Of a stretch of 64,000 bases of DNA, positions 12,249 to 57,957 are shown in pieces. Made by a program: the position numbers and the translations under genes. The stretch's first letter is position 1. Every line of letters starts with the position of its first letter. The notes under the pieces were generated by a model. The model was not told the origin of the DNA, did not search any database, and worked only from the letters and a program-made list of their open reading frames with translations. The DNA comes from an uncultured Clostridia bacterium (lineage in GTDB: Bacteria > Bacillota > Clostridia > Oscillospirales > Oscillospiraceae). The stretch spans positions 25,539 through 89,538 of the forward strand of contig CAMCNO010000005.1 in the NCBI GenBank assembly GCA_945876285.1. The letters are read 5' to 3'.

Positions 12249-12253
12249 TAAAC

Positions 12254-12330: not shown

Positions 12331-12386
12331 GCTCTCCTTATGGAGCGAATGTCGGCTAACAGAATCATTCCACGTCGTTGAGATGT

Positions 12387-12463
12387 GGTGGGTGTAGTTC
12401 AATTGGCAGAGCACTGGATTGTGGTTCCAGGTGTTGTGGGTTCGAGTCCCATCACCCACCCCA
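12387..12463 (+). tRNA. tRNA-His (anticodon GTG)
   Basis: Acceptor GTGGGTG/CACCCAC with the extra 5' G at 12387 opposite a C discriminator, as histidine tRNAs require. Anticodon loop TTGTGGT, encoded CCA. Confidence 0.96.
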
Positions 12464-12512
12464 GACAAAGAAGGGGATCGGGGCTACCCCGGTCCCCTCT
12501 TTCTTTCCACAG

Positions 12513-12587
12513 TGGGGCGTCGCCAAGTGGTAAGGCAAGGGACTTTGACTCCCTCATCCGCTGGTTCGAGTCCAGCCGTCCCAGCCA
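12513..12587 (+). tRNA. tRNA-Gln (anticodon TTG)
   Basis: Acceptor TGGGGCG/CGTCCCA, G discriminator, encoded CCA, anticodon loop CTTTGAC. Confidence 0.96.
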
Positions 12588-12630
12588 AGCCAATCAACGC
12601 CGCTGGCGTTTTGCATTTGAATAAAGACAT

Positions 12631-12706
12631 GATCCGGTAGCTCAGCCGGCAGAGCAACTGCCTTTTAAGCAGTGGGTCCGGGGTTCGAATCCCCGCCGGG
12701 TCACCA
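12631..12706 (+). tRNA. tRNA-Lys (anticodon TTT), prophage integration site
   Basis: Acceptor GATCCGG/CCGGGTC, A discriminator, encoded CCA, anticodon loop CTTTTAA, T arm CGGGGTTCGAATCCCCG. The gene is complete although the prophage begins at its last base. The crossover core TCACCA is its own 3' end (12701-12706), so integration leaves the tRNA intact. The natural operon terminator seems to lie on the far side of the prophage at 57739. Confidence 0.96.
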
Positions 12707-14984: not shown

Positions 14985-15296
14985 TTAATTGGCACCCATC
15001 AGGGTTGCCAGCAGGATCGAGAGTTCCGCCACGGCGGTGTCGTTCTGGAGCTGACGGGCATCCTGGTCCGCCTTCTGCTCACGCTGATACTCAGTCTCCG
15101 TGATCTCGGAGAGGATAACGCTTTCGTGTCCCTCCAGATCAGGCTTGCCCAGAACATGGTAAACGGTGCCATCCACCACAATTCCGTGGGCATCCTTCTC
15201 ATTCGAGATAGCGAAGCAGCCGTTCTCCTGGAGTCTCACCCAGGTGGGAGCATTGACCGTTGCCAGGGTCTCTCCGTTCTTGATGATTTTGAGCAT
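14985..15296 (-). CDS. Phage protein, 103 aa, between DGR and lysis genes
   Basis: Unrecognised soluble protein. It begins MLKIIKNGETLATVNAPTWV and ends in a Gln/Glu-rich helix. Similar short proteins (NGE...PTWVRLQENGCF) occur downstream of tail-fibre genes in clostridial phages. Its start lies inside the RT reading frame (98-base overlap). Confidence 0.62.
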   Translation of the reverse strand: MLKIIKNGETLATVNAPTWVRLQENGCFAISNEKDAHGIVVDGTVYHVLGKPDLEGHESVILSEITETEYQREQKADQDARQLQNDTAVAELSILLATLMGAN

Positions 15297-16443: not shown

Positions 16444-16835
16444 AGAAAAGGATTGCCCTCCGTACAGTATGATTGTCGGGTGCGGGTTCTAACTGCGTAG
16501 GGCTTCAGCCATGAAACAGAGTACCGCACATTCTCCGCCATGCAAGCAGCGTCCGGCTGATCCCATCGGAGGGCATATTTTGGCATATAGCCGGGAACAG
16601 GCTCTCCTTCCGTAAAAGATACTGGGTTCACTCCCGTGGGAGCTACTGTGTCCGTTCTATTCGAGTTACGGAATCCGAAGGCCACGCCATTCGAGTTGCT
16701 GGCGTTGTTGTTGTTGGCGTTGCCGTTGCTGTTGACATTACAGAAGTTGGTGCTGTTGCTCCCATTCGGGGAACGCTCCCACCAGTTCGAGGCAGCAGGG
16801 CAACTATAACAGAACCTGACCCATGGTATCCTCAT
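16440..16835 (-). other. TR-spanning open frame (131 codons), coding status unclear
   Basis: An uninterrupted frame runs from an ATG overlapping the avd stop to a TGA overlapping the RT start; both overlaps are ATGA. It passes through the whole TR in the same frame as the VRs (SNWWERSPNGSNSTNF...). The part after the TR (about 70 codons) resembles no family I know. It may only carry ribosomes to the RT gene, or may be open by chance because the TR must have no stops. I do not claim a protein product. Confidence 0.5.
16667..16795 (-). repeat. DGR template repeat (TR)
   Basis: 129 bases, gapless match to VR1 (17358-17486), and 110 of them match VR2 (52752-52861). It is rich in AAC/AAT codons, which is where the VRs differ. 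Against VR1, 15 of 16 mismatches are at TR adenines. Against VR2, 17 of 18 are. The one non-A change (C in the TR, T in both VRs) lies in the last 10 bases. There, GGATTCCGTA replaces the GGCTTCTGTA of both VRs, which is how IMH* differs from IMH. The spacer to the RT start is 223 bases. Confidence 0.97.
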
Positions 16836-17302
16836 TCCTCCGGCGGTTCCTCATCGTCAGGGAAATGCAGGTCTCCGGTAGGCAGATGCCGGTATCTGTC
16901 GGCATCCGCTTTCTTGGTGGCCCGGATCAAGGCTTTCTCCTGCGAGATGAGGTCTGCGATCTCTGAGATAGCACCGTCACACCATTTCTGGCAATCCGGG
17001 TTCTCCAGCAGACAGTCATACAGGAGGGCCAGCTTCGGGATCAAATTCATCAGGGCGTTGTTGCCTTCTGTCAGATGATCCCGGCGAAGCTGAGCCTCAT
17101 GCCTGTTCCGGGGATAGGTGTTGTTTGCGGAGCGGACCTCATTGTGAACGGCACTCGCCAGCCGCATCACCTCACTGGTGAGGAAGAAGGTCAGCCGCTT
17201 TGGAGACCGGATGCAGAGGGAAAGGACCTTTGCCTCCAGTTTCCGTGCCACCTCCACGAACTCCATCTTGCTCTCACTTCGCTTGGATTTTAAGACCGCC
17301 AC
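16832..17302 (-). CDS. avd: DGR accessory variability determinant (Avd)
   Basis: 156 residues, almost all helical and basic in the core (ARKLEAKVLSLCIRSPKRLTFFLTSEVMRLASAVHNEVRSA in part), with an acidic tail (PDDEEPPEE). This fits the four-helix-bundle Avd that forms a pentamer, binds the RT and is needed for cDNA synthesis. The position between target gene and TR is the classical one. GTG start with AAGGAGG 8 bases upstream. The hairpin after VR1 lies just before the ribosome site. Confidence 0.87.
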   Translation of the reverse strand: MAVLKSKRSESKMEFVEVARKLEAKVLSLCIRSPKRLTFFLTSEVMRLASAVHNEVRSANNTYPRNRHEAQLRRDHLTEGNNALMNLIPKLALLYDCLLENPDCQKWCDGAISEIADLISQEKALIRATKKADADRYRHLPTGDLHFPDDEEPPEE

Positions 17303-17319: not shown

Positions 17320-17337
17320 ACGCCCCTTACGGGGCGT
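17320..17337 (-). promoter_or_regulatory. Hairpin after VR1 (DGR target-recognition structure)
   Basis: On the minus strand ACGCCCC-GTAA-GGGGCGT: a 7-bp GC-rich stem with a GNNA tetraloop, 15 bases after the stop codon that ends VR1. Hairpins or cruciforms with 7-10-bp stems and 4-base loops just downstream of VR are known to promote DGR homing in the Bordetella phage. VR2 has an equivalent; the TR does not. Confidence 0.82.
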
Positions 17338-17352
17338 GATGATAAAGATGCC

Positions 17353-18633
17353 TCAGATACAGAAGCCGAAGGCCACGCCATACGAGTTGCTGGCGACGTT
17401 GCTGCCGGCGTTGCCGTTGCCGTAGACATAACAGAAGTAGGTGCTGTCGCTCCCACACGGGGAACGCTCCCACCAGTGCGAGGCAGAACCGTTGACCTTC
17501 TTGACCTTGCTGTTTCCAGCCTTATAGTAGGCGTATTGACTTCCCTCACCAGACTTGGAATAGGTGGTAGAACCGAAGATTTCCACCTCAGACAGCAGGA
17601 ACAGCTTATCGCTGGTCGTGTTGATGGTAGCACTCTGATTACCAGCAGAAGTCAGCTTATTGACAGCCTTGATGACATTCTGAAGATCAGCGGGAAGGCT
17701 GGAGAAAATGCTATTCAGCACTGAAGTCCGCATTGCACAGCTTGTCCATCCGCCGCTGTTGGTGTTAGAACTGTTCATCTGTGCGGTAGCGTTCATGCAG
17801 TCAACCATCTGGAAAGTAATTCCAGCGGTTCCTCCTGCCGTCTTGGTATCGTGGTTGAAGCCGATGATCTGGAATTGATAATCGGTGCCATCAATATTGA
17901 TGGTCTTTTTATCACCCACGCTCCAGATAGAAGCCGCATTTCCGCTCTTGGAGATAGAGTCGATAATATCCCAACCGGCAGTTTCCAGATCGGTAGACAA
18001 AGCCAGCTCATACTGAGCGATAGCTTTGATCTCATAATCGATGGAGATGGATACACCGTTGATGGTAGCACTGACAGTCCATGTTCCGAACCCTGGAATC
18101 TTCAAAATAGCAAGACCGGAAGAATCAGCCGTTGCGCTTACTGTTTTTCCACTCAGGGATGCCTTCACAGTAACACCTGCGTTGGTGGTAACCCGAAGTT
18201 CAGCGGGTGTACCGGAATTATCCACATACTGCTTGGTAGCTGCCATGAGGTTGGAGGTGGGGTCACCCTTCAGGATCAGATTGCCGGTCATGGTGCCGCC
18301 GGACTTGGGCAGAGCGGCGTTTGCCGTGGTCTTGGCACTGTTGGCGGTGGACTGTGCCGTTGCCACAAGCTCCTTCAGCTTGGTGAAAACATCCAGGATC
18401 GTGGGATCATCCTGAGTCAGCCCCAGAGCCGTGGCAAGCTCATCCGTCAGGATGTTGCTCTTTTTCATCAGAGTACCCAGAGTCTCGATGCCTTCCTGAT
18501 TGAACCCATTGAAGTCCACCGGGAAGGTTCCGGCCCGGAGCATGGCAAGGGCCTGTTCCCAGGTGATGCCCTCCGCCAGAGAGGTCTTCAGAAACCGGGA
18601 GTTGCCGGTTCCCTTCGTCTGCAAATCTTTCAT
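17353..18633 (-). CDS. DGR target protein 1, tail-fibre-like receptor-binding protein
   Basis: 426 residues. Around 107-137 it has a tail-fibre repeat (ALPKSGGTMTGNL ... AATKQYVD). An Ig-like stretch follows at about 140-205. A C-terminal DUF6273-type domain is related to C-type-lectin-like DGR targets: WSVGDKKTINIDG, GGWTSCAMRTSVLN, TTSDKLFLLSEVEIFG. The last 43 residues are VR1, where diversified positions read H, C, D, Y, Y, Y, G, G, S, V, Y against template N or S. It ends the late tail operon, so it very likely sits on the virion tip and binds a variable bacterial surface partner. Confidence 0.92.
   Translation of the reverse strand: MKDLQTKGTGNSRFLKTSLAEGITWEQALAMLRAGTFPVDFNGFNQEGIETLGTLMKKSNILTDELATALGLTQDDPTILDVFTKLKELVATAQSTANSAKTTANAALPKSGGTMTGNLILKGDPTSNLMAATKQYVDNSGTPAELRVTTNAGVTVKASLSGKTVSATADSSGLAILKIPGFGTWTVSATINGVSISIDYEIKAIAQYELALSTDLETAGWDIIDSISKSGNAASIWSVGDKKTINIDGTDYQFQIIGFNHDTKTAGGTAGITFQMVDCMNATAQMNSSNTNSGGWTSCAMRTSVLNSIFSSLPADLQNVIKAVNKLTSAGNQSATINTTSDKLFLLSEVEIFGSTTYSKSGEGSQYAYYKAGNSKVKKVNGSASHWWERSPCGSDSTYFCYVYGNGNAGSNVASNSYGVAFGFCI
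17358..17486 (-). repeat. DGR variable repeat 1 (VR1)
   Basis: 129-base copy of the TR at the 3' end of target 1. Fifteen substitutions are at template adenines (A to T, G or C) and one at a template C. Unchanged bases include every G and T and all but one C, as expected of adenine-specific mutagenesis. Confidence 0.97.
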
Positions 18634-44845: not shown

Positions 44846-45331
44846 TTAAATATTGTCAACATAGTCCGCCATGGGGAAGATAACGCCGATCAGCTCCGCA
44901 TCGTCATTGATGTAGGGCCGCTTGACCAGGAGTGCCACCACGCTCATCTCCTTGGTCTCCAGGTCATAGTTGGTCAGCATCTCCACCTGGTCATGGCGGA
45001 AGTCGATGAGACCGTAGTCATCGTTGGAGATGGGCAGCTTCAGCTTGTTGGGGTTCTCATTTGCAGCAAACACCCGGATGCAGTCCTTGATGGAGCTGTC
45101 ACCGCAGGGAAGGATCGCCTTGCTGAGAAAAGCGGGGGTCCCGGTAGGCTCACGCCGCAGGATGGCTTCGATGTTGGTGGGCATCGGAACGATGTTCTCA
45201 GCGATGATACCGCCCATCTGATCCGGGATTTTCAGCATGGAGGTGGCGGAAGCAAGCCACTTCTCGCCATTTTCACGGGTCTGGATCACACCGGAGCCGC
45301 CCAGCTGCTTGACAAATTTCTCGAACTTCAT
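44846..45331 (-). CDS. Phage protein in recombination cluster, 161 aa
   Basis: Unrecognised. Begins MKFEKFVKQLGGSGVIQTRE and has YGLIDFRHDQVEMLTNYDLE. It lies between SSB-like and exonuclease genes with a 4-base overlap, so it may help recombination or replication. Confidence 0.6.
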   Translation of the reverse strand: MKFEKFVKQLGGSGVIQTRENGEKWLASATSMLKIPDQMGGIIAENIVPMPTNIEAILRREPTGTPAFLSKAILPCGDSSIKDCIRVFAANENPNKLKLPISNDDYGLIDFRHDQVEMLTNYDLETKEMSVVALLVKRPYINDDAELIGVIFPMADYVDNI

Positions 45332-46377
45332 TTTGTTTCTTCCTCCTTCATTTTGACTCTCAGGGTATAGGTGGTTTTGGGGACCGCATACTGGTCAAAG
45401 AGTCCTGCCTTTTTCAAGGCGGTTTCATCAACCTTCATGCTGTCCGTGCGGGACATCACGAAACTGTACTTGCTGCCGCCCAGATCGACCTGCTTGTCCC
45501 CGTCCCGGAACTGACCCTGTGCATACTTCTTCAGCATATCGGTCAGAGTCTTATACCGCTTTTCATCGGCAGCGATGTCGGCGGCAGCTTTGTCCAGCTT
45601 TTCCTTCAGCTCCTCCGCCTCTTTGACGATGGCGGTGATGTCGGACTCCGGGGACAGGTTGTTGGTCCGAAGGGCCTTCAGGATGTCAGCATCCTTTTTC
45701 TCGTCATATACGGGAGAAATGCCGGTCTCCACATGGTCCTTCCACCATTTCAAAGCAGGTTTCACATACTTCTTCTCGAAGTCGGGATACCGCTCAGATA
45801 CCAGGAAGGGCCGGGTGATGGTGTTCTTTCCGGTGCAGACAAACTTCTCGGGATTGTCATAATCACCGGGTTCCAGGAAGGAAGCCACCATGATAACGCT
45901 GTCCACACCCAGGAGGTAGGCATACAGAGCTGCCTGGAGGGCATAGTATTCGGGGATGTCATCCTTCCAGTCCTCGGACCGCTGGGATGTCTTCATCTCC
46001 AGAACGGTGGTGGGCTTTCCGTCCTTGCCGATAAGCAGGTAGTCCCACATACCTCCGAACACAGGGGTTTCCCGGAAGAAGTCACCGTAGGTCTTGTGGA
46101 AATAGTCCTCACCCCAGATGTCGGTGGGAGTGACCAGATTCCGCATGAAGTAGGCATCCTTCATGTACTGGGCCTGTTTCGGTTCGATGGCCTTACCGGC
46201 AATGGTGAACTTCGTGTCCTCGAAAGGTTCCTCATAAGTACGGGTACAGGCACACCAGATTTCAAAGGGAGTGGACCAGCGGTTCAGCCCCAGAACGGAA
46301 GCAAACCGGGTGCCGGTCAGCTTCTTCGGCTTCTTGGGTGGAACGACCTGGATTCTCTGACCGTCAAGCCATTCCAT
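45328..46377 (-). CDS. YqaJ-type viral recombinase / exonuclease
   Basis: 349 residues. TGTRFASVLGLNRWSTPFEIW, then GGMWDYLLIGKDG and VLEMKTSQRSEDW (the D...ExK nuclease core) mark the lambda-exonuclease-like YqaJ family. It would produce single strands for the ERF annealing protein encoded 2 bases upstream. ATG 46377 has GGAGG 7 bases away. The C-terminal part contains a coiled coil (EEAEELKEKLDKAAADIA region). Confidence 0.87.
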   Translation of the reverse strand: MEWLDGQRIQVVPPKKPKKLTGTRFASVLGLNRWSTPFEIWCACTRTYEEPFEDTKFTIAGKAIEPKQAQYMKDAYFMRNLVTPTDIWGEDYFHKTYGDFFRETPVFGGMWDYLLIGKDGKPTTVLEMKTSQRSEDWKDDIPEYYALQAALYAYLLGVDSVIMVASFLEPGDYDNPEKFVCTGKNTITRPFLVSERYPDFEKKYVKPALKWWKDHVETGISPVYDEKKDADILKALRTNNLSPESDITAIVKEAEELKEKLDKAAADIAADEKRYKTLTDMLKKYAQGQFRDGDKQVDLGGSKYSFVMSRTDSMKVDETALKKAGLFDQYAVPKTTYTLRVKMKEEETK

Positions 46378-46379
46378 AA

Positions 46380-47135
46380 TCAACCCTCCTGGCTGGTATA
46401 GCCATCAAGCATATCAGCCACATTCTCAGTCAGGGCCAGACAGGCAACACGCTTGATCTCCTGGAAGCTATTGGTCTTCAGGGCGATTTCCTGGATAAAG
46501 GACTCCTGCTCCGGGTCCAGCTCCAGCAACAGTTTCAGCTTTTCCTTCAGTTCGGAAATTTCCTCCTCAGAGGCCATCTCCTCGGAACCGGTCAGCTGCT
46601 CAGTGATCTCCTTGCGCTCAGCGGGAGTAACGGGGCGGCTGGCCTTGGGAGTCTCCGTTGCCTTGGGGGAGGGAGTATCCTGGCCCTCGTCTTCCTCGGG
46701 AACAGGAAGACCGTCAAAGCCATCGCTCTCCACCAGGTCCAGAACCAGCATATAGAGATACCGGCGGTAGTAGGTGACCACGGCGCCCACGCCCTGGACC
46801 TCATTCATACGGAATTTGGCGGGTTCTGCGATAAAGCGGATGGGGATGGTGAAGGGAATGTGCTGCTGGGGGTCATCCATGTTCACGACATCCGCCACAG
46901 CGATCTCATCCGTAAATGCGGGGATCAGAGACAGATGGTACTTCGTGAACAGGGCCTCCGCCTGGGGAACAATGTCCACCAACTCAAAATAGGTGAACTC
47001 TGCGTGAAGGTTTTTGCCGGACTTCTTGCTTCCTGCCACCAGGAACTCCATGCGAACCGCCTGAAGTTTCTGCCAGACATTCATGTCCTTGATCTCGATT
47101 GTGCGGGCAGCGTTCTCAGTTTTCTTGGGTGCCAT
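46380..47135 (-). CDS. ERF-type single-strand annealing protein
   Basis: 251 residues. The ERF signature GVGAVVTYYRRYLYMLVL (G-x-A-x-x-Y-x-R-R) is near residue 122, and the N-terminal part has EFTYFELVDIVPQAEALF. An acidic linker and helical C-terminus follow. It anneals complementary strands, partner of the YqaJ exonuclease. Confidence 0.88.
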   Translation of the reverse strand: MAPKKTENAARTIEIKDMNVWQKLQAVRMEFLVAGSKKSGKNLHAEFTYFELVDIVPQAEALFTKYHLSLIPAFTDEIAVADVVNMDDPQQHIPFTIPIRFIAEPAKFRMNEVQGVGAVVTYYRRYLYMLVLDLVESDGFDGLPVPEEDEGQDTPSPKATETPKASRPVTPAERKEITEQLTGSEEMASEEEISELKEKLKLLLELDPEQESFIQEIALKTNSFQEIKRVACLALTENVADMLDGYTSQEG

Positions 47136-47149
47136 TTTTAATTTCCTCC

Positions 47150-49006
47150 TTATTTTTCGATGTCCAGCATAGCCAGACTTTTCTTCTTCAGATTGTTGAC
47201 TCTGCGGGTATTTCGCTTCAGAGGCTTGTACCCCAGAAAGTCACCAACCTTTTCCTGGGCCTGACGGATGTACCACATACGATCCACAACATCAATGGTC
47301 ATGTGATTGTCGTTGTCGATGACACAATGCTCCGGCATACCTGCCACCTTCATAACTGACCCGGTGGAGGCATGAGCCTTATACAGGGTCCCGTACCGGC
47401 ATCCGTACTCAATAGAGAAGGGAGTCGCATAAACCCGGTTCACCTTCTGGACCGGGACCATGGTTCCGTCTACCATGTGATATGCACCGCTGTACTTGCC
47501 TCCGGCCTTTGCAATCAGCTGGAAGTCCAGAATACGGTCACATTCCATGATGGTCTTCTCAACAGGTACTCCGTATGCCAGGTAGTCCTTGACCGCCCGG
47601 GCGATCACGGTAGCGTTGTTGTTGATGTTGAAGGCACCGGCAGGGGATATGCCACGGACCAGGACTCCGCCCTTGATCTTCGGCTCACCCTCAATGGGGA
47701 CCTCCACATAATTGTTGACATCCTTCTGAACGATCTTGCGGATGAAGTCCTCCTCCAACTCAAAGCCTGTACGATCCTGCCATTCCTGGCAGATGTCGTT
47801 GTAGGTCTCCACATCGCAGTTGTCCAGGCTCACCATGATGCCATCGGTGTTGAGCTGGATGATTCTCAGAGAGGGGCAATCCTGTACCAGATGCTCAGCC
47901 AGCTCCAGCAGCTGAAGCTGACCGGAGATGCACACGGAGCGGCCCATCAGGGGATCAAACAGATCGTTGTACTGGTTGAGCATGGCCCCGTAGGTGGTAT
48001 TGAGGACCAGCTTCAGGGCATTGGCAGTGGCCTTGTCACCGCTCCTTTTGGCCTGGACACGCCGCTCAATGGTATCTGCGTAGGTCTTCGGTGACGGCAT
48101 ATTCCTGCTGCAATACCCATTCAGGGTCATCTGGTGTGGATAGTAGCTTGTCACATCCCGGTTTCGGATCGACCGATCCTCCGTAGCTTCCTCCCGATAG
48201 CATGGAATGGCTCCGTGGATTCCTCCGTATGCCAGGGTGCAGGGGCATCCTCCGACCATGATCTCCAGCTTTTCGGAGAACACCACATCATCCGGGATGG
48301 ACATATCGTGGACTCTCTCGAAGAAGGCAAAGACCTCCGGGGGAATGTACTCCGTCATCAGAGTGGCGGGGTAACGGTATTCCCGCTCATCGTAGTGGGG
48401 CTGAGCTTTGGCGTCCAGATAGGCAGCGGTCAGCTTTGCATTGGTCATATACAGCGCCCGGGCGTCCGGGATGTTCTTCTCTCTGCCCAGCGTGATCTTG
48501 TTCTTCAGATAGTCCTTCCGCAGCGTGAACAGCTCATTGGTGGCGAACACATCATGCTTGCAATAGAAGACCACCTCATCAAGTTCCTCCCGGGAAAGAG
48601 GATGATCGATGTTGAAGTCAACCGTTGTCTCCCGGATGTCCATACCCAGGTGAGCTTCGATGGCCTTCAGACTCAGGCCCATCTGGCAATCATCCATCAG
48701 GTCAAAGCTGTCAAAAAACACCTTGTACTGCTGGAGGAAGGGGTTCTCCCATCCGTTGTGACCGTGAACGATGATAAAGTCATTGATGGACTTGACCATC
48801 ACCGGGTCCGCATCACACAGGATAGCCTTCAGGATATGGTTGTCGTAGTGCTTGTTGTTGAAGCCACAGAGGATAGGCTCCTGATCCATGAACTGCTTGA
48901 TGGCATCGTTGTCGTTATGGATGACCGTGTACTCTCCGGTCTCCCGGTTCATAAACACGAACAGCCAGTCATAAGCGAAAACCTCACAGTCGAAAATGTA
49001 GATCAT
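47150..49006 (-). CDS. Phage family-B-like DNA polymerase
   Basis: 618 residues. N-terminal 3'-5' exonuclease (IYIFDCEVFAYDW; later YCKHDVFAT). The polymerase has a motif A equivalent VTSYYPHQMTLNGY, motif B KLVLNTTYGAMLNQYND and motif C QLNTDGIMVSL. Motif C is NTD rather than the usual DTD, so one catalytic Asp is changed, as in several related phage polymerases. Start at MIYIFD since GGAGGA is 8 bases upstream. Confidence 0.85.
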   Translation of the reverse strand: MIYIFDCEVFAYDWLFVFMNRETGEYTVIHNDNDAIKQFMDQEPILCGFNNKHYDNHILKAILCDADPVMVKSINDFIIVHGHNGWENPFLQQYKVFFDSFDLMDDCQMGLSLKAIEAHLGMDIRETTVDFNIDHPLSREELDEVVFYCKHDVFATNELFTLRKDYLKNKITLGREKNIPDARALYMTNAKLTAAYLDAKAQPHYDEREYRYPATLMTEYIPPEVFAFFERVHDMSIPDDVVFSEKLEIMVGGCPCTLAYGGIHGAIPCYREEATEDRSIRNRDVTSYYPHQMTLNGYCSRNMPSPKTYADTIERRVQAKRSGDKATANALKLVLNTTYGAMLNQYNDLFDPLMGRSVCISGQLQLLELAEHLVQDCPSLRIIQLNTDGIMVSLDNCDVETYNDICQEWQDRTGFELEEDFIRKIVQKDVNNYVEVPIEGEPKIKGGVLVRGISPAGAFNINNNATVIARAVKDYLAYGVPVEKTIMECDRILDFQLIAKAGGKYSGAYHMVDGTMVPVQKVNRVYATPFSIEYGCRYGTLYKAHASTGSVMKVAGMPEHCVIDNDNHMTIDVVDRMWYIRQAQEKVGDFLGYKPLKRNTRRVNNLKKKSLAMLDIEK

Positions 49007-49010
49007 AGGC

Positions 49011-50729
49011 TCATCCTCCCAGCAGCCGTTCCAGCTGCCTTCTCTGAAGGACTTCCGCCACACCCTCCATGATGTAAAGCATGCACGGGAACGCCATTCC
49101 GTTCCCCCACATCTTGTATTCCGCCGAATCCGTATGGAGCTTGTTGTACCAGGTCAGCATCTGCGCTTTGGTGTAATCCTTCTGCGGTTTACCGTTGATA
49201 GCAGCGTGTGTATTCCGCACATTCAGCCAGAAACGGTATTCCTCGTCTGTGAAGTCCTCCTTCGGGTCAGGATGGCCCCAGTCATCCGGGAAGCCCTGTA
49301 ACCTGGCGCACTCGGTCGGAGTGAGGCGGCGGACGATGTATTGGACACGAACAACTTGATTACAATTCAGGCTAAATCCACCGTTTGGCTTTGCTTGTAA
49401 TGTCCCAGACATCTCCGGGTATTCCGTTCCGTTTCGGCAGTCCACGCCCGCCACGATGGGCTGTTCGTGATTGCAGTTCAGACACGGGCAGACATCTTCG
49501 AGGATTTCCGCATTGGCTTGTCCGTGGGCCATGCAAACCACAGGCTGATTGTTCCCGCTCATTCCGGCACTGGCTGTAATGGTTGGGCAGAGGTTTTCCA
49601 TGATCTCCGCTCCTCCCTGCTGTGTAGCCATGCAGTAACAGACCCCGTGGCGGTCAACAGCATTCAGTGTGTGGGCTACATCCTCGCAAATCCCGCTCCC
49701 GTTTTGCTGGGCGTTTCGGTCGATGGTATTCCCCTGAAGGCTGTATGCGTGGGATTTCTCCACCACAAACGGCTGATTATTCCCTCCCGTTCCAAGCTGG
49801 GCCGGAAGCATCGGACAGACGTCAAGCGGGCCTCTATACCGGGAATCCTGGCTGTGATTCTCGAAAAGGTATTTATCCTTAACAATTACACCATTGCAGA
49901 ATCCAGGTCTTGTTCCGTTACATATCGTTGTTGCCACTTCATCATAAAGACGAACGTTTTCCGGTCTGAATCCAAGAGGAAACCCTACGCATTCTCCCTC
50001 GCAATCGTCTGCTCCAGTGCGATTCGCAGCATCTCCGGCAGTTCCTTGCCCCGCCGTTTTGAACGTCTCAAAATCCCTTCGCAAGCTCTCGCGCTCAAAT
50101 AATACTTCTCTGGCACATTGACCTCTAAGATCGAGGACAAGGTAGATTCTACGGCGTCTTTGGGGGACTCCCCAGTATTGAGCGTCAAGAACTCTGTAAG
50201 AAAGGCTCCATCCGTCACCGCAATAACTGTCGGCGTAGGGCCATCCGTTCTTCGGAACCGCAGGCATAACGGCTGTCGGCTCGACGATTTTGATGAGTTC
50301 TTCGAGGACGGTTCGGAAATCCTCTCCTTTGTTGCTGCTGAACGCTCCGGGGACGTTTTCCCAAACAGCGAAAGTTGGGTATTCTCCATTGGTCGCTTCC
50401 CTCATTTCCTTGATGATTCTCACGGCCTCCATAAACAGGCCGCTTCGTGTGGTTTCATCGTCACCGTTGGCTTCGTGCTTCAGGCCAGCGCGTTTTCCTG
50501 CCACGGATAAGTCCTGGCATGGGCTTCCGAAGGTAATGATGTCCACAGGCTCGATGTCTCCGCCGTGAACGTCTGTCACGCTTCCAAGATGCTTCATGTT
50601 CGGGAAGCGGCTTCTTGTCACAGCGACAGGGTACGGTTCGACCTCACTCGCCCATGCGGGTATGATACCAACCGAAGAAGCAGCAAGTGGACAAGTACCG
50701 CTACCGTCAAACAGACTTCCCAATTTCAC
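49011..50729 (-). CDS. DNA cytosine-5 methyltransferase with large insert
   Basis: 572 residues. Motif I LFDGSGTCPLAA, catalytic PC in GSPCQDLSVAGKRAGL (motif IV), ENV in motif VI, and C-terminal RRLTPTECARLQGFPDDW with GNGMAFP (motifs IX-X). Between about 235 and 440 there is a low-complexity insert of repeated units (GNNQPFVVEKSHA, GNNQPVVCMAHGQA, AHTLNAVD, CPTITASAG). Inserts of this sort are known in phage Dcm-like enzymes and may hold several recognition modules. It probably shields phage DNA from restriction. GTG start overlapping the helicase stop. Confidence 0.9.
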   Translation of the reverse strand: MKLGSLFDGSGTCPLAASSVGIIPAWASEVEPYPVAVTRSRFPNMKHLGSVTDVHGGDIEPVDIITFGSPCQDLSVAGKRAGLKHEANGDDETTRSGLFMEAVRIIKEMREATNGEYPTFAVWENVPGAFSSNKGEDFRTVLEELIKIVEPTAVMPAVPKNGWPYADSYCGDGWSLSYRVLDAQYWGVPQRRRRIYLVLDLRGQCAREVLFERESLRRDFETFKTAGQGTAGDAANRTGADDCEGECVGFPLGFRPENVRLYDEVATTICNGTRPGFCNGVIVKDKYLFENHSQDSRYRGPLDVCPMLPAQLGTGGNNQPFVVEKSHAYSLQGNTIDRNAQQNGSGICEDVAHTLNAVDRHGVCYCMATQQGGAEIMENLCPTITASAGMSGNNQPVVCMAHGQANAEILEDVCPCLNCNHEQPIVAGVDCRNGTEYPEMSGTLQAKPNGGFSLNCNQVVRVQYIVRRLTPTECARLQGFPDDWGHPDPKEDFTDEEYRFWLNVRNTHAAINGKPQKDYTKAQMLTWYNKLHTDSAEYKMWGNGMAFPCMLYIMEGVAEVLQRRQLERLLGG

Positions 50730-52138
50730 TTTGTTACCTCCTCAATGAACCGACACCCAGCCTTACGGTAGCTGGTACACCGCCGCTTGTATGCCTTGAC
50801 CAGGCTCTTGATGTTGTCCACATAGTCAAAGCAGACAGGCTCACCCTTGCCCTCGCAGGTCCTGGCAATACGGCCTATACTCTGAGTAATCACAGCGTAG
50901 TCCTTCTGCGGTGTGGTCAGATACAGACGGTCCAGGCGGGGAATATCCAGACCTTCCTTCGCCAGGGCATAGGTGGCAAACAGGAACCGCAGGTCACCGG
51001 ACCTCATTCTCTGCATGATCTGTTCCCGGTCTCCTCTGGCTTTCTTGCTGGTCATCTTACCGGAAACCATTGCAGACTTCGCCCGAAGATGAGGCGGAAG
51101 CAGGTGCATCAATTCCTCCAGATGGTCCAGTCGGTCAGAGAGGATCAGATGAGAGTGGTCATCCGTGGACTTGGAAATGATGTCGTTCACGATCATCTGG
51201 TTTCGCTGCCGATGACCGGAAAGATAGGTCAGCAGCTTGGAATAAATGATGGTGCCATCGGTATCAAGACAATCCTTGGATATAACCACGCCCGTTTCCC
51301 GGGGAAGAACGGATACCTTCATAATGCGGTCTGAGACAGCCGTGTCAGGAACCGTATGAGCTACGGGGCCAATAAGGGCATAGGTGGCGCTGATGAGACC
51401 ATCAGCCCGATGTACCGTTGCGGAGAGTCCATATTTGTGCCGTGCTGCCAGGTTGTTCAGGACACGGGAGAACTGGGTGACAGCCGTAGGGGTCCCGGCA
51501 ACATGGTGGCACTCGTCCACGATGATGACATCCCATTCATTCCGAAGGGATTGCAGGTCCAGGCAGCTCATGGTCTGCACCGTTGCAAAGGTGATGCCCC
51601 TGCCGATATTGACCTTCCCGTCCGTGATAGTCCCAGTCAGAGAAGGGTCCATATACTGCTCCGCCCTCTGTTTGCTCTGGCTCAGAAGGTCCTTTGTGTG
51701 GGTCAGCCACAGGGTCTTGCGGCCCAGCCTTGCCGCCAGAGCAATACCCATCTGTGTCTTTCCACTTCCGGCGGCACTCTGGAGGATGCCGCAGTACACT
51801 TTCTCCATCCCGTCAACAGCCTCTGCCTGGTAGTCATAGAGAGGGACCTCACAGTGGAAGTCCACCTTCTTTGGGGCCAGGAACTCGCTCTCAACACGGT
51901 CACAGTAGGGATCGATGAACATATCCTCCAGGACTTTCAGGCACCCGTAGGGGAGGATCAGAGTGTCACCGTTCTTCTCATAGAGGTACAGATACTCCGG
52001 GGTGTTCCCGGTGTAGAACCCCATCCGCTTTTTCTTGACAAACTCAGGATTGCGGAAGCGTAGGTTCTTATAGCAGTAGTTCATCAGGGTGTCGGATGGT
52101 TCCCGGACTCTGATCTTATTGCCGATACTCAGTTCCAT
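50726..52138 (-). CDS. SF2 DEAD/DEAH-box helicase
   Basis: 470 residues. Q-like LYDYQAEAVDG, Walker A SAAGSGKTQM near 129, DECHH box (VIIVDECHHVAGT), SAT motif (GLSATVHRADG), and the C-terminal FATYALAKEGLDIPRL and QSIGRIART. It resembles phage ATP-dependent helicases that act in replication or recombination. Start at MELSIGN; overlaps the nuclease gene. Confidence 0.92.
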   Translation of the reverse strand: MELSIGNKIRVREPSDTLMNYCYKNLRFRNPEFVKKKRMGFYTGNTPEYLYLYEKNGDTLILPYGCLKVLEDMFIDPYCDRVESEFLAPKKVDFHCEVPLYDYQAEAVDGMEKVYCGILQSAAGSGKTQMGIALAARLGRKTLWLTHTKDLLSQSKQRAEQYMDPSLTGTITDGKVNIGRGITFATVQTMSCLDLQSLRNEWDVIIVDECHHVAGTPTAVTQFSRVLNNLAARHKYGLSATVHRADGLISATYALIGPVAHTVPDTAVSDRIMKVSVLPRETGVVISKDCLDTDGTIIYSKLLTYLSGHRQRNQMIVNDIISKSTDDHSHLILSDRLDHLEELMHLLPPHLRAKSAMVSGKMTSKKARGDREQIMQRMRSGDLRFLFATYALAKEGLDIPRLDRLYLTTPQKDYAVITQSIGRIARTCEGKGEPVCFDYVDNIKSLVKAYKRRCTSYRKAGCRFIEEVTK

Positions 52139-52530
52139 GCATTCACCCACTCCTCAACGGTCATCCCCTGCAAGATTTTCTCCCGGGGGATAATGGTGTG
52201 AAGACAGGACAGGTCCTTCAGCTGCTGAAGGGAGAACATCCTCACCTGCCCGATGGGAAGCTCCAGAGCGAACCAGCCGGGACCGTTCTTGCACTCCTCC
52301 CATAGGCTCATGGCCTGGATTTGGTTGTCCTCCACACGGTCCAGCCGGAAGTACCCCTTCTCACAGACCTTGCAGTCTATCAAAGCGGCCTTCCCGTCCT
52401 TGGATGCAATGAGGTCAGCCGGTTGTCCGGCACTGTTCTGAGTCAAAAGATGGACCCAGAAACCCAGCTTGGAAAGCTCTTGGGCGAACCGACCCTCGAA
52501 GTCAGACCCCAGCTTTTTGTTGCTTGCCAT
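52129..52530 (-). CDS. RecU/VRR-NUC-type Holliday junction resolvase
   Basis: 133 residues. GSDFEGRFAQELSKLGFWVHLL, then QPADLIASKDGKAALIDCKV, a PD-(D/E)xK nuclease core (E, D, D-x-K). Such small nucleases resolve Holliday junctions or process flaps during phage replication. Sits next to the SF2 helicase. Confidence 0.82.
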   Translation of the reverse strand: MASNKKLGSDFEGRFAQELSKLGFWVHLLTQNSAGQPADLIASKDGKAALIDCKVCEKGYFRLDRVEDNQIQAMSLWEECKNGPGWFALELPIGQVRMFSLQQLKDLSCLHTIIPREKILQGMTVEEWVNAWN

Positions 52531-52707: not shown

Positions 52708-52725
52708 TGCCGCCTTTCGGCGGCA
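52708..52725 (-). promoter_or_regulatory. Hairpin after VR2 (DGR target-recognition structure)
   Basis: On the minus strand TGCCGCC-GAAA-GGCGGCA: a 7-bp stem with a GAAA tetraloop, 21 bases after the stop that ends VR2. Same length and loop class as the hairpin after VR1 (17320-17337), although the stem sequences differ. Confidence 0.85.
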
Positions 52726-52746: not shown

Positions 52747-53649
52747 TCACATACAGAAGCCGAAGGCCACGCCACGCGAGTTGCTGGCGCTGCTGCTGTT
52801 GGCGTTGCCGTCGCCGGCGACAGCACAGAAGCCGGTGCTGTAGCTCCCAAGCGGGGAACGCATCCAACCCCACCCGGAGTCACCGTTGGGATACTTCTTG
52901 GCATAGGACACGCCCTCACGGCGATACCACTGATACCAGCGGCCCTCATCACCTGCGGAATAGAACTTCCGACCATACCGCTCATGCTCAGACAGCAGGA
53001 ACAGCTTGTCCACGGTACTGACCTTTCCGGTCTTATTTCCACCGCAGGAAGTGGTCTTGATGACCGGGCAGATGACATCCTGAACTTCATCAGGCAGCAG
53101 GGCGAAGACATCCTCATTCAGATACCGCCGCATCTCGCTGGAGGCCCATCCGCCCTCATTGGTGCAGGACTTGTTCATCGCATGGCGGTCCTTCATAAAA
53201 TCGACCATCTCCCAGGTCAGGGCAGCTTTACGACCGTCATGGGTAGTGTCATGGCGGATGCCGATGATCCGCATAGTGATCTGCTCACCGTTCTTCAGGA
53301 TGATGTCCTTGGTATCACCCACACTGAAGAACTGGCTGTAACCGGTACGACCGCACAGGTACTTGATCCTGCTCCAGCTCATGCCGTTCAGATTGTGGCG
53401 GCAGTCAATTTGTTCCTCAACGGTGATCCCCATGGGATGTAACATGGAGAAAGGAGTAAAAGGGCATCCTGTGAAGAAGTCCGCAGGAACCTCAAAGGGC
53501 TTGTTATTCTGGGCCATCTCCATGCTCTTACGGGCCATCTCCTGGTGCTTGATGTGGTCCTTCAGTTCCTTGTTCTCCGATCTCAGGTATCTGGCTTCCT
53601 CCTGGTATTTCTCCAGGACTTCGTTCAACTTAACCAACAGTTCGTTCAC
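52747..53649 (-). CDS. DGR target protein 2, encoded in the early region
   Basis: 300 residues. N-terminal coiled coil (about 1-48; LNEVLEKYQEEARYLRSENK), no signal peptide, then a DUF6273-type domain shared with target 1 (FSVGDTKDIILKNGEQ, GGWASSEMRRYLNED, STVDKLFLLSEHERYG). The C-terminal VR2 has diversified positions L, Y, G, A, A, G, D, S, S, S, R against template N or S. It lies between nuclease genes about 35 kb from the RT, not in the late operon. Whether it is a virion, cytoplasmic or surface protein is unclear; no tail-fibre repeat is present. Confidence 0.9.
   Translation of the reverse strand: MNELLVKLNEVLEKYQEEARYLRSENKELKDHIKHQEMARKSMEMAQNNKPFEVPADFFTGCPFTPFSMLHPMGITVEEQIDCRHNLNGMSWSRIKYLCGRTGYSQFFSVGDTKDIILKNGEQITMRIIGIRHDTTHDGRKAALTWEMVDFMKDRHAMNKSCTNEGGWASSEMRRYLNEDVFALLPDEVQDVICPVIKTTSCGGNKTGKVSTVDKLFLLSEHERYGRKFYSAGDEGRWYQWYRREGVSYAKKYPNGDSGWGWMRSPLGSYSTGFCAVAGDGNANSSSASNSRGVAFGFCM
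52752..52861 (-). repeat. DGR variable repeat 2 (VR2)
   Basis: 110-base gapless match to TR positions 16667-16776. Seventeen substitutions are at template adenines and one is the TR C to T change also found in VR1. Similarity stops sharply at the 5' end, 6 codons earlier than for VR1. Confidence 0.96.
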
Positions 53650-53662: not shown

Positions 53663-53968
53663 TCATTTCATGGGAGGGTCGTATCTCATACCCTCCGGCG
53701 TTGTGAAGCAGTTTAGCTTCGGATTGCAGACCGGGCAAAACCTACGGTCGTTCTTCTTGTTCTTCAAGTCCCGCTCCAGGCCACGGTCTCCGTTTGCCCA
53801 GACATTGACCACCTGGAACCCAATACCTGCGTCCCTGACAGCGTGTAGGAGCTTGGCCCCATCATTCGTGCAGGAATGAGCGTGAAACCGCTGATCCAGG
53901 TCATGGGTATATCCAATGTAGTGCTGGGCGTGTTTAAGAGGTTTATCGAAGTGAATCAAATAAACCAT
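53663..53968 (-). CDS. GIY-YIG domain protein, 101 aa
   Basis: MVYLIHFDKPLKHAQHYIGYT with YLIH...YIGYT (GIY-YIG-like), RFHAHSCTNDGAKLL and GLERDLKNKKNDRRFCPVC. This matches small stand-alone GIY-YIG nucleases frequent in phages. It ends 13 bases before target 2. Confidence 0.8.
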   Translation of the reverse strand: MVYLIHFDKPLKHAQHYIGYTHDLDQRFHAHSCTNDGAKLLHAVRDAGIGFQVVNVWANGDRGLERDLKNKKNDRRFCPVCNPKLNCFTTPEGMRYDPPMK

Positions 53969-54007: not shown

Positions 54008-54700
54008 TCAATTTTCCATGCCGTCCTCGGGAGTGCCAGCTTCCAGGGCGGCTTCTCTTTTCAGCTGCTCATAGCGGGTCATCACCCTCTCGCTGTACTC
54101 GGTGCTTTCCACACCTTCAGCAAAGAGTCTCCGGGCGCCGGTGGGGCCACGGTTGTAGGCGATGACTGTTTCCTCCAGGGTGTCAAACAGGCTACGGTAC
54201 TTACTCAGGATAGTCACACCACCCTTGATGTTCTGATAAGGGTCCATGATGTCGGTGATACCATAGTCCTCTCTCAGCCACTCATGGTTGATGGTATTGA
54301 TCTGCATGAGTCCGTAGTCTCCGCTTTTACTGACAGCGGAAGGGTCATAGTTGCTCTCTGTGCCGATGATCGCCAGGATCAATTCCATGGGAAGGTCTTC
54401 CTCGGAGGCCAGCTCCCGGATATAGTCCTGGATGTCTTCATCCAGAGGCACATCATAGTAGAAAACCTCCATAGGCTTTTCCTCCTGGATCACAAACACG
54501 GTTTCCTGCACCACGCAGGTATGCTCCGGCTCATAGGCTTTCGCCTCCGGGGTAGAGAAAAGACCCCGGCAAAACCATCCCAGCATGAAACCGAAAGAGA
54601 TGATGACGAACACCACGATCTGGATACAATGTCTCTCCCACCACCGCAGGATACGCTTTCTCCGCTGCACACGCTGGCGGAAGGTCGTTTGCTCAGCCAT
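54008..54700 (-). CDS. Membrane-anchored lytic transglycosylase
   Basis: 230 residues. Basic N-terminus, membrane helix (IQIVVFVIISFGFMLGWF), then an SLT domain with ILAIIGTESNYDP (catalytic Glu), SKSGDYGLMQIN and AYNRGP. It cleaves peptidoglycan. Its early-region place, away from the late lysis genes, suggests a lysogenic or DNA-entry role rather than final lysis. Start 54700 has GGAG 8 bases upstream. Confidence 0.85.
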   Translation of the reverse strand: MAEQTTFRQRVQRRKRILRWWERHCIQIVVFVIISFGFMLGWFCRGLFSTPEAKAYEPEHTCVVQETVFVIQEEKPMEVFYYDVPLDEDIQDYIRELASEEDLPMELILAIIGTESNYDPSAVSKSGDYGLMQINTINHEWLREDYGITDIMDPYQNIKGGVTILSKYRSLFDTLEETVIAYNRGPTGARRLFAEGVESTEYSERVMTRYEQLKREAALEAGTPEDGMEN

Positions 54701-54705
54701 CTTCA

Positions 54706-54870
54706 TCACTCCTTTTTCCAAACATAGGGTTTTCCGTAGGTCTTCTTGTACCAGGTCTCGAACTCCTTACGGTGCTGCTTGTCCTGGTAGTATTCGGTGA
54801 CGATCCGGGCCAGCGAGGCTCCCAAACACGCCTCTTGACTCTGAACCGCCGGGGTAAACAGGGAACTCAT
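54706..54870 (-). CDS. Small phage protein, 54 aa
   Basis: Begins MSSLFTPAVQSQEACLGASL and ends KKTYGKPYVWKKE; YYQDKQHRKEFETWYKK is a charged helix. Its last codons contain the ribosome site of the transglycosylase gene. Function unknown. Confidence 0.58.
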   Translation of the reverse strand: MSSLFTPAVQSQEACLGASLARIVTEYYQDKQHRKEFETWYKKTYGKPYVWKKE

Positions 54871-55369: not shown

Positions 55370-55400
55370 CCATAATATACTACCGATTTTGCGTACTGTC
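55370..55400 (-). promoter_or_regulatory. Early lytic (PR-like) promoter with repressor sites
   Basis: Minus strand: TTGACA (55395-55400), 17-base spacer, TATATT (55372-55377). The spacer contains GTACGCAAAAT; the same word occurs inverted at 55453-55462, with related half-sites (AATACGAAAAT, GGCGTATTTTG) at 55400-55431. These look like CI operators controlling the early operon and the repressor gene. Confidence 0.7.
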
Positions 55401-55460
55401 AATACGAAAATACCTAAAAGGCGTATTTTGTGAAAGGTGCATAATATGGAGGTACGCAAA

Positions 55461-56129
55461 ATGAGTAGTATGACCATACAATTAACCAGGATACTTGAAC
55501 AGATGGAAAAGAGAGGAATATCCAAAAAGGAAATGTGTGCAAAATTAGGTTATAAGGGTCAGCAAGCGTTTGCGAGTTGGATGAAAGATGACGGTAAAAA
55601 TACATCTTACATCAAGAAAATACCTCAAATGGCTGAAATTCTCGGAGTTTCCGCTGACTATCTGCTTGGAAAAACGGATGATCCCCGACCTATGCTGGAA
55701 AGAGCCGGGATCAACCCCATACCTATGGAAGAACAGGCCATGAGACCCATCATCGGTATGGCCTCCGCCGGATCAGGCGTCCTTGCACAGGAGCAAATAT
55801 TGGGATGGGAGAGTGTGGACATCAAATACAACACAGATGAATATTTTTATCTGCAAATCTCCGGGGACAGCATGGCACCGAAGATCGATGACGGTGACCT
55901 GGTTCTGGTCCACAGGCAGGATGAAGTATCCTCCGGGGATGTTGCAGTTGTCCTGGTTACAGACCATGATGAGGAGGCGGAGGGTTTTGTAAAGAAGGTG
56001 GAGATCGATGGTGACAGCGTTACCTTGGTCTCTTTCAATCCGTACTATCCGCCTCGGGTCTTTTCCGGGAAAAGCATACAGCAGCTGTCCTTTGTTGGAA
56101 AAGTCGTTGAGCTGAAAAGGAAGTTCTGA
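55461..56129 (+). CDS. CI/LexA-like phage repressor (HTH + S24 peptidase)
   Basis: 222 residues. N-terminal HTH (ISKKEMCAKLGYKGQQAFASW), a hinge with the self-cleavage Ala-Gly in GMASAGSGVL, then an S24 catalytic domain with Ser in ISGDSMAPKI and Lys in SGDVAVVLV...EEAEGFVKKVE. Such repressors keep the prophage silent and cut themselves when RecA is activated by DNA damage. Start 55461 has GGAGG 8 bases upstream. Confidence 0.92.
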   Translation: MSSMTIQLTRILEQMEKRGISKKEMCAKLGYKGQQAFASWMKDDGKNTSYIKKIPQMAEILGVSADYLLGKTDDPRPMLERAGINPIPMEEQAMRPIIGMASAGSGVLAQEQILGWESVDIKYNTDEYFYLQISGDSMAPKIDDGDLVLVHRQDEVSSGDVAVVLVTDHDEEAEGFVKKVEIDGDSVTLVSFNPYYPPRVFSGKSIQQLSFVGKVVELKRKF

Positions 56130-56130: not shown

Positions 56131-57957
56131 ATGAAGAAAGCGGCATTTCCCATTGATCTCTCCATGCTCACGGAGCTGGAGATCAAACAGTTCCGGGATG
56201 ATCCATCCACCCTGTTTGAGGGTGACACGGATGTAGCCCTATATCTGCGCTTCAGCAGCGAGAAGCAAAAGGAACAGTCCATTGAAGGACAGCTCCGGGA
56301 CTGTATCTCCTACTGCAAACTCAATCGGTACAGGATCGTTGCCATCTATGTGGACCGCTCAAAAACAGCCAGCAAGCGGGTGGCAAAGAGAGTCTATTTC
56401 CAACAGATGATCCAGGACAGCTCACGGAGAGAGTGGGAGTATGTGGTGGTGTGGAAGCTGGACAGGTTCGCCAGAAACAGGCAGGACAGCGCCATCTACA
56501 AATCCCGTCTGCGGAAGAACGGGGTCCGGGTTTTGTCAGCCACTGAGGTCATATCTGAACAGCCGGAGGGTATTATCCTGGAAGCCGTGCTGGAGGGAAT
56601 GGCGGAGTTCTATTCTGCGGAGCTGAGCCAGAAGGTGTCCCGGGGAATGAGGGAGTCCGCCATCAAGGGCATGAGCGTTGGCGGTACGCTGCCACTTGGC
56701 TACAAGGTGGAGAACAAGAAGTATGTCATCGACCCCGTGACCGGGCCTATCGCACAGGAAGCCTTCAAGCGGTATGCAGCTGGAGAGACCGTGGCTGAGA
56801 TTTGTGCCAGGTTCAACGACCTCGGGTATAAGACGGTCAAGGGTGGGCCGTTCAATAAGAACAGCTTCCATCGGATGTTCCGAAACGAAAGGTACATCGG
56901 CGTCTATAAGCACGGGGACATCCGCCATGAGTCCGGTATGATCCCGGCATTGATCGACCGACATACCTGGGATGAGGTACAGGCCAGACTGGAAAAGAAT
57001 GACCTTGCTCCGGCAAAGAGCAAGGCCAAAGAGGAATATATGCTGACTGGAAAACTGTTCTGCGGACATTGCGGCTCCATGATGGTTGGAGAAAGCGGCA
57101 CCGGTCGCCGGGGGAAGACCTACTTTTACTATTCCTGCACGGGCCGGAAGAAACGCCGTGACTGTGACAAAAAGCCCGTCAAGAAAGAATGGATCGAGAG
57201 AGTGGTGGCGGAGGATGCCCTTGCTCTGCTTACGGATGATGTCATTGGGGAGCTGGCAGAGGTAGCTGTCCGGCAGACCCAGGAGGACATCCAGAAGAAT
57301 ACCGTCATCCCTGCCTTGGAGGAACAGCTCCGGGAGACAGAAAGCAGTATCGACAACATCATCTCCATGATCGAGAAGGGCGTGGCATCAGACCGCCTCG
57401 CAAAGCGTCTGAGCCAGCTGGAAAAGGACCAGAAAGACTTGCAGAAAAGACTGGACCGGGAAAGAAAATCTGTCGTGATCCTGGAGAAGCCTATTGTCAT
57501 CCACTGGCTCAAACAGTTCTCCAGAGGTGACATCGAGGAGGACAGCTTCCGGCGGCAGCTGATAGACCTCCTGGTCAATTCCGTGACCGTATGGGATGAG
57601 CCGGATGGGTGGTTCAAGATCACAACGGTTTATAATTTACTCCAGAACAACAGGAAGACGATCAAGGTCAAAATGCCTCCAACCCCTTCAGCCCCAACGG
57701 GTTCCGGGGGTTCGGATTTAGGCCCCGTTGGTTCACCAACTCGTCGCAAGCGTCATATCGCTTGCGACGAGTTTTTTATGCTCCGCATCAAAACTCATCT
57801 CGCGCTCATTCTGCTGCTCCTCCTTTCCAACCGCGATCCGCTGCGCAGCCGTTGGCGGCTTTGCCGCCTTACGGATGCGGCGTGCCCCTTGTGGGTGCTG
57901 CGCTGGGTTCGCGGTTGGTTTTGGGTGCAGACCCGAAAGCATGTGCCTCGGAAGTGA
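56131..57957 (+). CDS. int: Large serine integrase, frame running through attR
   Basis: 608 residues as integrated. Catalytic domain: ALYLRFSSEKQ (Ser42), RDSA and LDRFARN. Recombinase domain around 170-300; zinc-ribbon KLFCGHCGSMM ... CDKKP near 310-345; coiled coil about 400-455. The frame crosses attR at codon 536. Codons 537-608 (TRRKRHIACDEFF ...) are host sequence, hydrophobic then basic, and unlike the rest. In the excised circle the gene would instead end after 24 other codons (about 560 residues). The ATG follows the repressor TGA by one base, so the two are co-transcribed. Confidence 0.92.
   Translation: MKKAAFPIDLSMLTELEIKQFRDDPSTLFEGDTDVALYLRFSSEKQKEQSIEGQLRDCISYCKLNRYRIVAIYVDRSKTASKRVAKRVYFQQMIQDSSRREWEYVVVWKLDRFARNRQDSAIYKSRLRKNGVRVLSATEVISEQPEGIILEAVLEGMAEFYSAELSQKVSRGMRESAIKGMSVGGTLPLGYKVENKKYVIDPVTGPIAQEAFKRYAAGETVAEICARFNDLGYKTVKGGPFNKNSFHRMFRNERYIGVYKHGDIRHESGMIPALIDRHTWDEVQARLEKNDLAPAKSKAKEEYMLTGKLFCGHCGSMMVGESGTGRRGKTYFYYSCTGRKKRRDCDKKPVKKEWIERVVAEDALALLTDDVIGELAEVAVRQTQEDIQKNTVIPALEEQLRETESSIDNIISMIEKGVASDRLAKRLSQLEKDQKDLQKRLDRERKSVVILEKPIVIHWLKQFSRGDIEEDSFRRQLIDLLVNSVTVWDEPDGWFKITTVYNLLQNNRKTIKVKMPPTPSAPTGSGGSDLGPVGSPTRRKRHIACDEFFMLRIKTHLALILLLLLSNRDPLRSRWRLCRLTDAACPLWVLRWVRGWFWVQTRKHVPRK
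57707..57738 (+). other. attR (right prophage junction)
   Basis: Phage arm GGGGTTCGGATTT (57707-57719), 13 bases of spacer, then core TCACCA (57733-57738) followed by host DNA. The arm and T-stem-like CGGGG/CCCCG resemble the 3' end of tRNA-Lys, but no whole tRNA is present. Confidence 0.8.
57739..57777 (+). terminator. Probable native terminator of the tRNA operon
   Basis: Fourteen-bp perfect stem ACTCGTCGCAAGCG/CGCTTGCGACGAGT plus six Ts, starting right after the core. If the prophage were removed it would follow the CCA of tRNA-Lys directly. Confidence 0.85.

Follow-up and report, generated by a model that had tools for sequence, protein, structure and literature searches.

The prophage in the 64,000 nt stretch of contig CAMCNO010000005.1 analysed here (the window; contig positions 25,539-89,538), from an uncultured Clostridia bacterium, harbours a diversity-generating retroelement (DGR) with a single template repeat (TR) and two target genes, a tail-fibre-like gene near the element (target 1) and a second gene at 52747-53649 (target 2), which sequence comparison confirms as a true target. 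The initial annotation of this DNA had proposed that one reverse transcriptase (RT) serves both genes, the second of them remote in the early region, and the comparison upholds this, with one TR and with the variable repeat (VR) of target 2, VR2, 36,085 nt away from it. We consider it probable that the RT rewrites target 2 from this distance of 36 kb, and that the product is a soluble protein of lectin fold, made early in infection and acting in the cell as a changeable binder.

VR2, the 3' end of target 2, aligns with TR positions 16667-16783 over 118 columns (E 9e-30 against the window), with 19 substitutions and one 1-nt gap at the 5' edge. Changes affect 17 of the 34 TR adenines vs 2 of the 83 other bases (Fisher p = 2.3e-9), so that the adenine bias first described as 17 of 18 mismatches, a count that omits the 5' edge, holds at 17 of 19. 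Compared with the repeat of target 1 (VR1), 14 of the 34 TR adenines are unchanged in both repeats, 11 are changed in both, six in VR2 only and three in VR1 only, and the new base is the same at three of the 11 adenines altered in both, which agrees with the earlier proposal that the two repeats were diversified separately. Changes common to VR1 and VR2 occur at the 3' end, while elsewhere the two differ: both VRs end in GGCTTCTGTAT, where the TR has GGATTCCGTAA, distinct ends known as the initiation of mutagenic homing sequence (IMH) in VRs and IMH* in the TR. TR/VR pairs with adenine mismatches, by which a DGR is recognised, are present for both targets. The RT carries LGxxxSQ in place of QGxxxSP, the DGR-type motif, and is accompanied by an Avd-like accessory protein, named as in the annotation of Roseburia phage Shimadzu.

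Variation among relatives points to a repeat that has kept changing. A protein search with target 2 gave 56 relatives, and others were located in other genomes; within its own genome (85.5% complete) the query matches three places, namely itself, target 1 and the TR, whereas no match was obtained among viral contigs, with the single protein or two alignments, or among genome contigs with the single protein. Six full-length relatives of the 56 share the N-terminal helix with target 2 and were used for a codon test (P0006 has no VR), in which a codon counts as an A codon if the TR has an adenine at its first or second position. Residues differ from target 2 in 81 of 108 comparisons at A codons, in none of 120 at the remaining VR codons and in 235 of 1545 elsewhere. 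For a second family, five early targets were aligned, and this alignment found 411 relatives, with clusters of up to 3125 members among the 120 listed. For 48 of these proteins (from the first 53 of the 411, the ones exceeding 60% identity), entropy amounts to 2.32 bits at the 16 A codons of the TR of Dulem virus 34, 0.49 at 21 VR codons that are not A codons and 0.75 in the protein body.

Because TR-adenine codons vary and other VR codons do not, a frozen VR2, the outcome that the initial annotation had named as fatal to its own proposal, fails at the level of the family; the target 2 family as such is not frozen, present activity in this very prophage being a separate matter. It is accordingly very improbable that VR2 is a relic, left over from the end of the DGR cassette and no longer changing. 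In 11 of the 12 surveyed records with both a near and a remote VR (the latter at a TR distance above 10 kb), the TR match of the remote one does start 12-26 nt later on the 5' side (the exception is G063), as expected had the TR originated from the near gene; the 3' sequence and a hairpin behind it have, however, been retained.

Such hairpins follow both VRs of the window and have GC-rich stems of 7 bp and 4-nt loops, GTAA after VR1 and GAAA after VR2. PMC3240598 reports that in phage BPP-1 a hairpin is required for a sequence to act as recipient, and that the loop common to phage DGRs is GRNA, at 4-34 bp from the VR; the GTAA loop of VR1 fits GNRA but not this consensus. The surveyed DGR loci were scanned for a GNRA loop on a perfect stem of at least 5 bp, 10-60 nt past the VR. 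Where the VR forms the gene end, this structure was found at 17 of 24 near VRs (one of these rows, a miss, is the TR of MT835569 mistaken for a VR, and two members, G033C20 and G434C7, were assigned to this class by hand) and at six of eight remote VRs, compared with 18 of 9895 random pieces. With a stem of at least 6 bp the counts become 16 of 24 near and 3 of 8 remote VRs, 0 of 13 in the class with the VR inside the gene, and 6 of 9895 random pieces. A GRNA hairpin after the TR occurs in 0 of 32 cases. The class with the VR inside the gene, which lacks the GNRA hairpin, has remote targets as well, and this suggests independent origins. A role of the VR2 hairpin as intrinsic terminator was also considered and rejected for the coding strand, since the hairpin there lacks a T run behind it; it is terminator-like on the other strand only.

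DUF6273 is the only Pfam match of target 2 and is common to both targets (E 3.5e-16 and 7.9e-19), as had been noticed at the outset, and the domain is predicted to adopt a C-type-lectin fold that contains the VR. For the N-terminal coiled coil of the initial annotation there is a predicted helix at residues 2-48, whose a/d heptad positions are 71% hydrophobic in the best of seven registers vs 38% overall, as judged by a register count. No membrane-like segment was found (top 19-residue hydropathy 0.98), nor any tail or Mtd_N domain in Pfam or tail-category family in PHROGs, and the gene lies 36 kb from the tail genes. On hydropathy, a signal peptide or membrane anchor, as in TvpA, the DGR variable protein of Treponema denticola and a surface lipoprotein, was likewise not found in target 2.

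The relatives P0008-P0012 contain a peptide K...LN..YG in the N-terminal part (residues ~38-79), which is present in none of the other proteins among the 176 compared and is absent from the window's own target 2. It resembles motif B of family-B DNA polymerases. A 22-residue profile of the peptide, run against 10,963 open reading frames (ORFs), ranked the only survey relative of the window polymerase first and the window DNA polymerase (47150-49063) second, both as weak matches (E 0.097 and 0.21).

The position of target 2 suggests when it is made. Late genes of the prophage, including terminase, portal, tape measure and the tail-fibre-like target 1, are on the - strand, and so is an early run that begins beside genes for an S24 repressor and a large serine integrase (Table 1). 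Target 2 belongs to this run together with replication genes, between a resolvase-like gene and a GIY-YIG-like gene whose match falls just under the Pfam cut-off, the nuclease and GIY-YIG neighbours previously reported. Consensus matching on the - strand between 52.4 and 55.5 kb placed all promoter-like sites within 55.2-55.43 kb, the best at 55402-55374. Consensus matches of this kind are weak evidence; this site by the repressor gene and the position of the gene behind it, taken together, make early, repressor-controlled expression of target 2 likely and expression in the lysogen unlikely. Part of the original idea is favoured and part is not: early-region position here and in most of the other records, the lack of a membrane-like segment and the failure to find an attachment domain speak for a protein that may be no virion part, whereas expression in the lysogen, offered alongside, finds no promoter-like site nearer than that beside the repressor gene. 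The same arrangement bears on superinfection exclusion or competition, in which an early protein would bind a variable protein of rival phages. Rival phages do carry diversified proteins, and temperate gut phages presumably meet often; yet a gene silent in the lysogen would be absent where exclusion matters most, and we regard this explanation as quite unlikely.

Table 1. Positions of the DGR, its targets and neighbouring early features in the window.
Feature	Positions	Strand	Remarks
DGR reverse transcriptase	15199-16443	-	LGSQVSQ at 212, YMDD at 244; phrog_1423, E 2.6e-70
Template repeat (TR)	16664-16795	-	sequence comparison
Avd-like accessory protein	16832-17302	-	relatives near RT in at least 19 other surveyed records
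Hairpin 3' of VR1	17320-17337	-	ACGCCCC-GTAA-GGGGCGT
DGR target 1	17353-18633	-	426 aa, tail-fibre-like stretch and DUF6273
VR1 (in target 1)	17355-17486	-	16/17 substitutions at TR adenines
Early genes after target 2	45328-52150	-	helicase, C5 methylase, DNA polymerase, ERF, YqaJ (Pfam, PHROGs)
Holliday-junction-resolvase-like gene	52129-52530	-	phrog_843, E 4.6e-8
Hairpin 3' of VR2	52708-52725	-	TGCCGCC-GAAA-GGCGGCA
DGR target 2	52747-53649	-	GTG start, 300 aa; predicted helix 2-48, linker, predicted C-type-lectin-like DUF6273 domain ~85-300 ending in VR2
VR2 (in target 2)	52752-52869	-	17/19 substitutions at TR adenines
GIY-YIG-like gene	53663-53968	-	13 nt upstream of target 2; E 2.8e-4, 21.5 bits (Pfam cut-off 22.6)
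SLT transglycosylase gene	54008-54721	-	with hydrophobic segment; same early run
Early promoter-like site	55374-55402	-	TTGACA-17-TATATT, consensus match only, 11/12
S24 repressor-like gene	55437-56129	+	followed by large serine integrase, 56131-57957

The window is not alone in this arrangement. The survey comprised 33 RT loci, of which 22 besides the window were on genome contigs and 10 in phage records, taken mostly by record length from RT matches at 44 distinct genome places and in 21 phage records; G116 (3 kb) and G464 (6 kb) were left out as too short, and VR pairs were dropped below 70 columns or below 80% of mismatches at A, among them a 53-nt pair of G463 with 6/8. The terminase of the window has no relative at E 1e-4 among the ORFs of the other 32 records (some of them partial), so that the surveyed phages are not close kin. 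A remote VR was found in 13 of the 33 loci (the window, Shimadzu, Dulem virus 34, Lelie, nd12, nd4, MT835491, G368, G048, G038, G463, G494 and G063), the ORF of the one in G038 being L025:8920-9555; G006 yielded no TR/VR pair despite having an RT and DUF6273. Eight of the 13 were not blind picks: the window itself, four loci with distant DUF6273 matches (G048, G038, Shimadzu and Dulem 34) and three in which two VRs were known (Lelie, nd4 and nd12). Among loci taken on the RT alone, some of which had shown a DUF6273 match near it, the frequency is 5 of 25, a lower bound because several contigs end early. When five early targets were searched in named genomes, 10 loci emerged, two of which were G463 and G368 again; five of the other eight genomes contain an RT at E 1e-8. 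Five of seven RT places were tested in this later round (the two of G557 against partial sequence), and remote A-biased VRs were found in G555, G559 and G561 (Lacrimispora defluvii). Overall, 16 of 38 DGR loci, 15 besides the window, possess a remote adenine-marked VR.

Among these 16 loci the distance between remote gene and TR ranges from 11.7 to 96 kb, and in 14 cases a replication, recombination or methylase gene is situated within 3 kb, with only same-strand ORFs listed as neighbours. By deposited annotation and Pfam, such neighbours are a DNA methylase and Erf in Shimadzu, a methyltransferase in Dulem 34, an exonuclease, C5 methylase and ERF in nd4, Dam in nd12 and G494, a single-stranded DNA-binding protein (SSB) in MT835491, an N6/N4 methylase in G368, RusA-like, MT-A70 and ATPase genes in G063, MT-A70 in G038, C5 methylases in G463, and a PD-(D/E)XK nuclease and primase-helicase in G048; by eye, G561 resembles Shimadzu, with Erf and SSB after the gene, and G559 has a methylase-like gene before it. 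Overlap with a same-strand neighbour was noted for seven of 13 remote targets in mechanical ORF calls, and the deposited annotations of Shimadzu, nd4 and nd12 contain such overlaps as well.

These distances and neighbourhoods, together with the failure to find a tail or Mtd_N domain in target 2 and with one remote target fused to DUF3310, make it unlikely that target 2 belongs to the virion as a further receptor-binding or decoration protein whose gene stands among early ones by chance. That explanation does draw on several observations: those phage DGR targets whose role is known are tail proteins, the near targets in these phages share DUF6273, the target 2 domain matches the end of phrog_37900, a family of 633 residues that also matches target 1, and the relative P0015 joins DUF6273 to PF18454, presumably the N-terminal domain of Mtd. 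In addition, the authors who described nd4 and nd12 suppose a Mtd-like function for the second target (PMC10743442).

Second targets distal to the DGR are as such already known, and the idea is less unusual than was initially held. In BPP-1 the target is a tail protein of the DGR cassette, whereas the second target described here is 36 kb off among early genes. The two systems share RT, Avd, TR, A-specific VR changes and, behind the VR, a GC-rich hairpin whose loop has 4 nt (PMC3240598). Shimadzu possesses a tail target and a remote orf43 between DNA methylase and Erf, with 15 of 15 mismatches at TR adenines; orf43 differs from target 2 in being 209 aa long and lacking the N-terminal helix, and a GNRA hairpin was found at neither VR. 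The discussion of PMC11792537 credits the two diversified proteins of Shimadzu to Cornuault 2020. For Faecalibacterium phage Lelie and for CP11 the same source describes DUF6273 targets of two sizes, large and small, whose function its authors leave open, with variation at both VRs across 37 CP11-like genomes. The small target of Lelie is 15.9 kb from the TR and differs from that of the window by a VR inside the gene and no hairpin. For the tentaclin phages nd4 and nd12, one TR and two DUF6273 targets are reported (PMC10743442); we place the second targets 11.7 and 14.1 kb from the TR, and they differ from our system in that the near target's VR is close to the 5' end and the second target of nd12 starts with DUF3310. 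Finally, a study of four gut prophage species (Nature 2025; PMC12629997) places a second VR far from the RT, with DNA methyltransferase and similar genes close by, which its authors read as related to an arms race; we compared these species with target 2 by description. Given these published cases the phenomenon itself is not new; what this analysis adds is an early-operon class of targets, the hairpin that goes with it and a coiled-coil family, and in the passages of these papers and in listings of open-licence literature we found no statement on an early-operon class or this coiled-coil family.

How an intracellular, changeable binder might be generated can be outlined from these data. One TR with two VRs, independent A-specific differences and, in relatives, hypervariable TR-adenine codons form the starting point. 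By analogy with BPP-1, RT and Avd would copy the TR RNA with adenines misread, and the cDNA would replace VR2, with the common 3' sequence and the hairpin of GNRA loop behind both VRs as guides. The helix at 2-48 is predicted to multimerise the protein, while the lectin-fold domain would display ~18 diversifiable residues. Early expression from the promoter-like site flanking the repressor gene would yield an intracellular product. The least certain step, which we rate as possible but doubtful, is that its ligand is a host factor that varies, with a defence component as the likeliest candidate, each infection sampling a binding surface.

Several points weigh against this scheme. Nothing in the sequence names a ligand, and where the role of a lectin-fold DGR protein is known, as for Mtd and TvpA, the protein is exposed to the outside. 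Early neighbours are no proof of early expression, and methylase genes are common in phages anyway; the three neighbours scanned in Lelie have no Pfam match, and those of G555 were matched to nothing by eye. A remote VR was not found in 20 of the 33 surveyed loci (some contigs end early), three of the eight genomes carrying a relative of the Dulem-type early protein gave no RT at E 1e-8, and the early gene of G557 is matched by neither of the two TRs tested in partial sequence. In G048, with the remote gene 96 kb from the TR, a near VR was not found, and the two places may belong to different prophages. The codon test employs the window's TR as predictor for relatives whose own TRs were unseen. 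The hairpin is not universal, since with a stem of at least 5 bp it occurs at 0 of 13 VRs inside genes (nd4, nd12, Lelie, G494, G063 and others).

More tentatively still, gut Bacillota phages may commonly carry an early-operon, DGR-evolved intracellular binder, hypermutated in trans by the retroelement of the tail fibre and tracking host defence proteins; such a binder would be a lectin-fold module on exchangeable N-terminal parts, among them coiled coils, DUF3310 and the polymerase-motif-like peptide. Phage DGRs are explained by receptor switching, and a recurrent early-operon target, if true, would mean that targeted hypermutation also serves the intracellular fight, one machine evolving entry into the cell as well as survival thereafter. 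On the question of what second DGR targets do, the 16 remote genes, which include those of a Lacrimispora defluvii strain record and of Roseburia and Faecalibacterium phages, offer a concrete, testable class. This class is probably undercounted, as a large metagenome survey states that its own approach would miss remote targets (PMC8144416).

Three further features of the window may be added. The C5 methylase gene at 49011-50729 is long (572 aa), and its Pfam match falls into three stretches, as if a segment had been inserted between motifs. A specific link of target 2 to the early SLT transglycosylase was considered and rejected: relatives of the latter occur in seven of the 33 surveyed DGR records (the window, Dulem 34, G038, G463, G428, G084 and MT835543), four with a remote VR and three without. 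Five tRNA genes (Gly, Arg, His, Gln and Lys) stand in a row at 12174-12706, ~2.5 kb past the RT end of the DGR.
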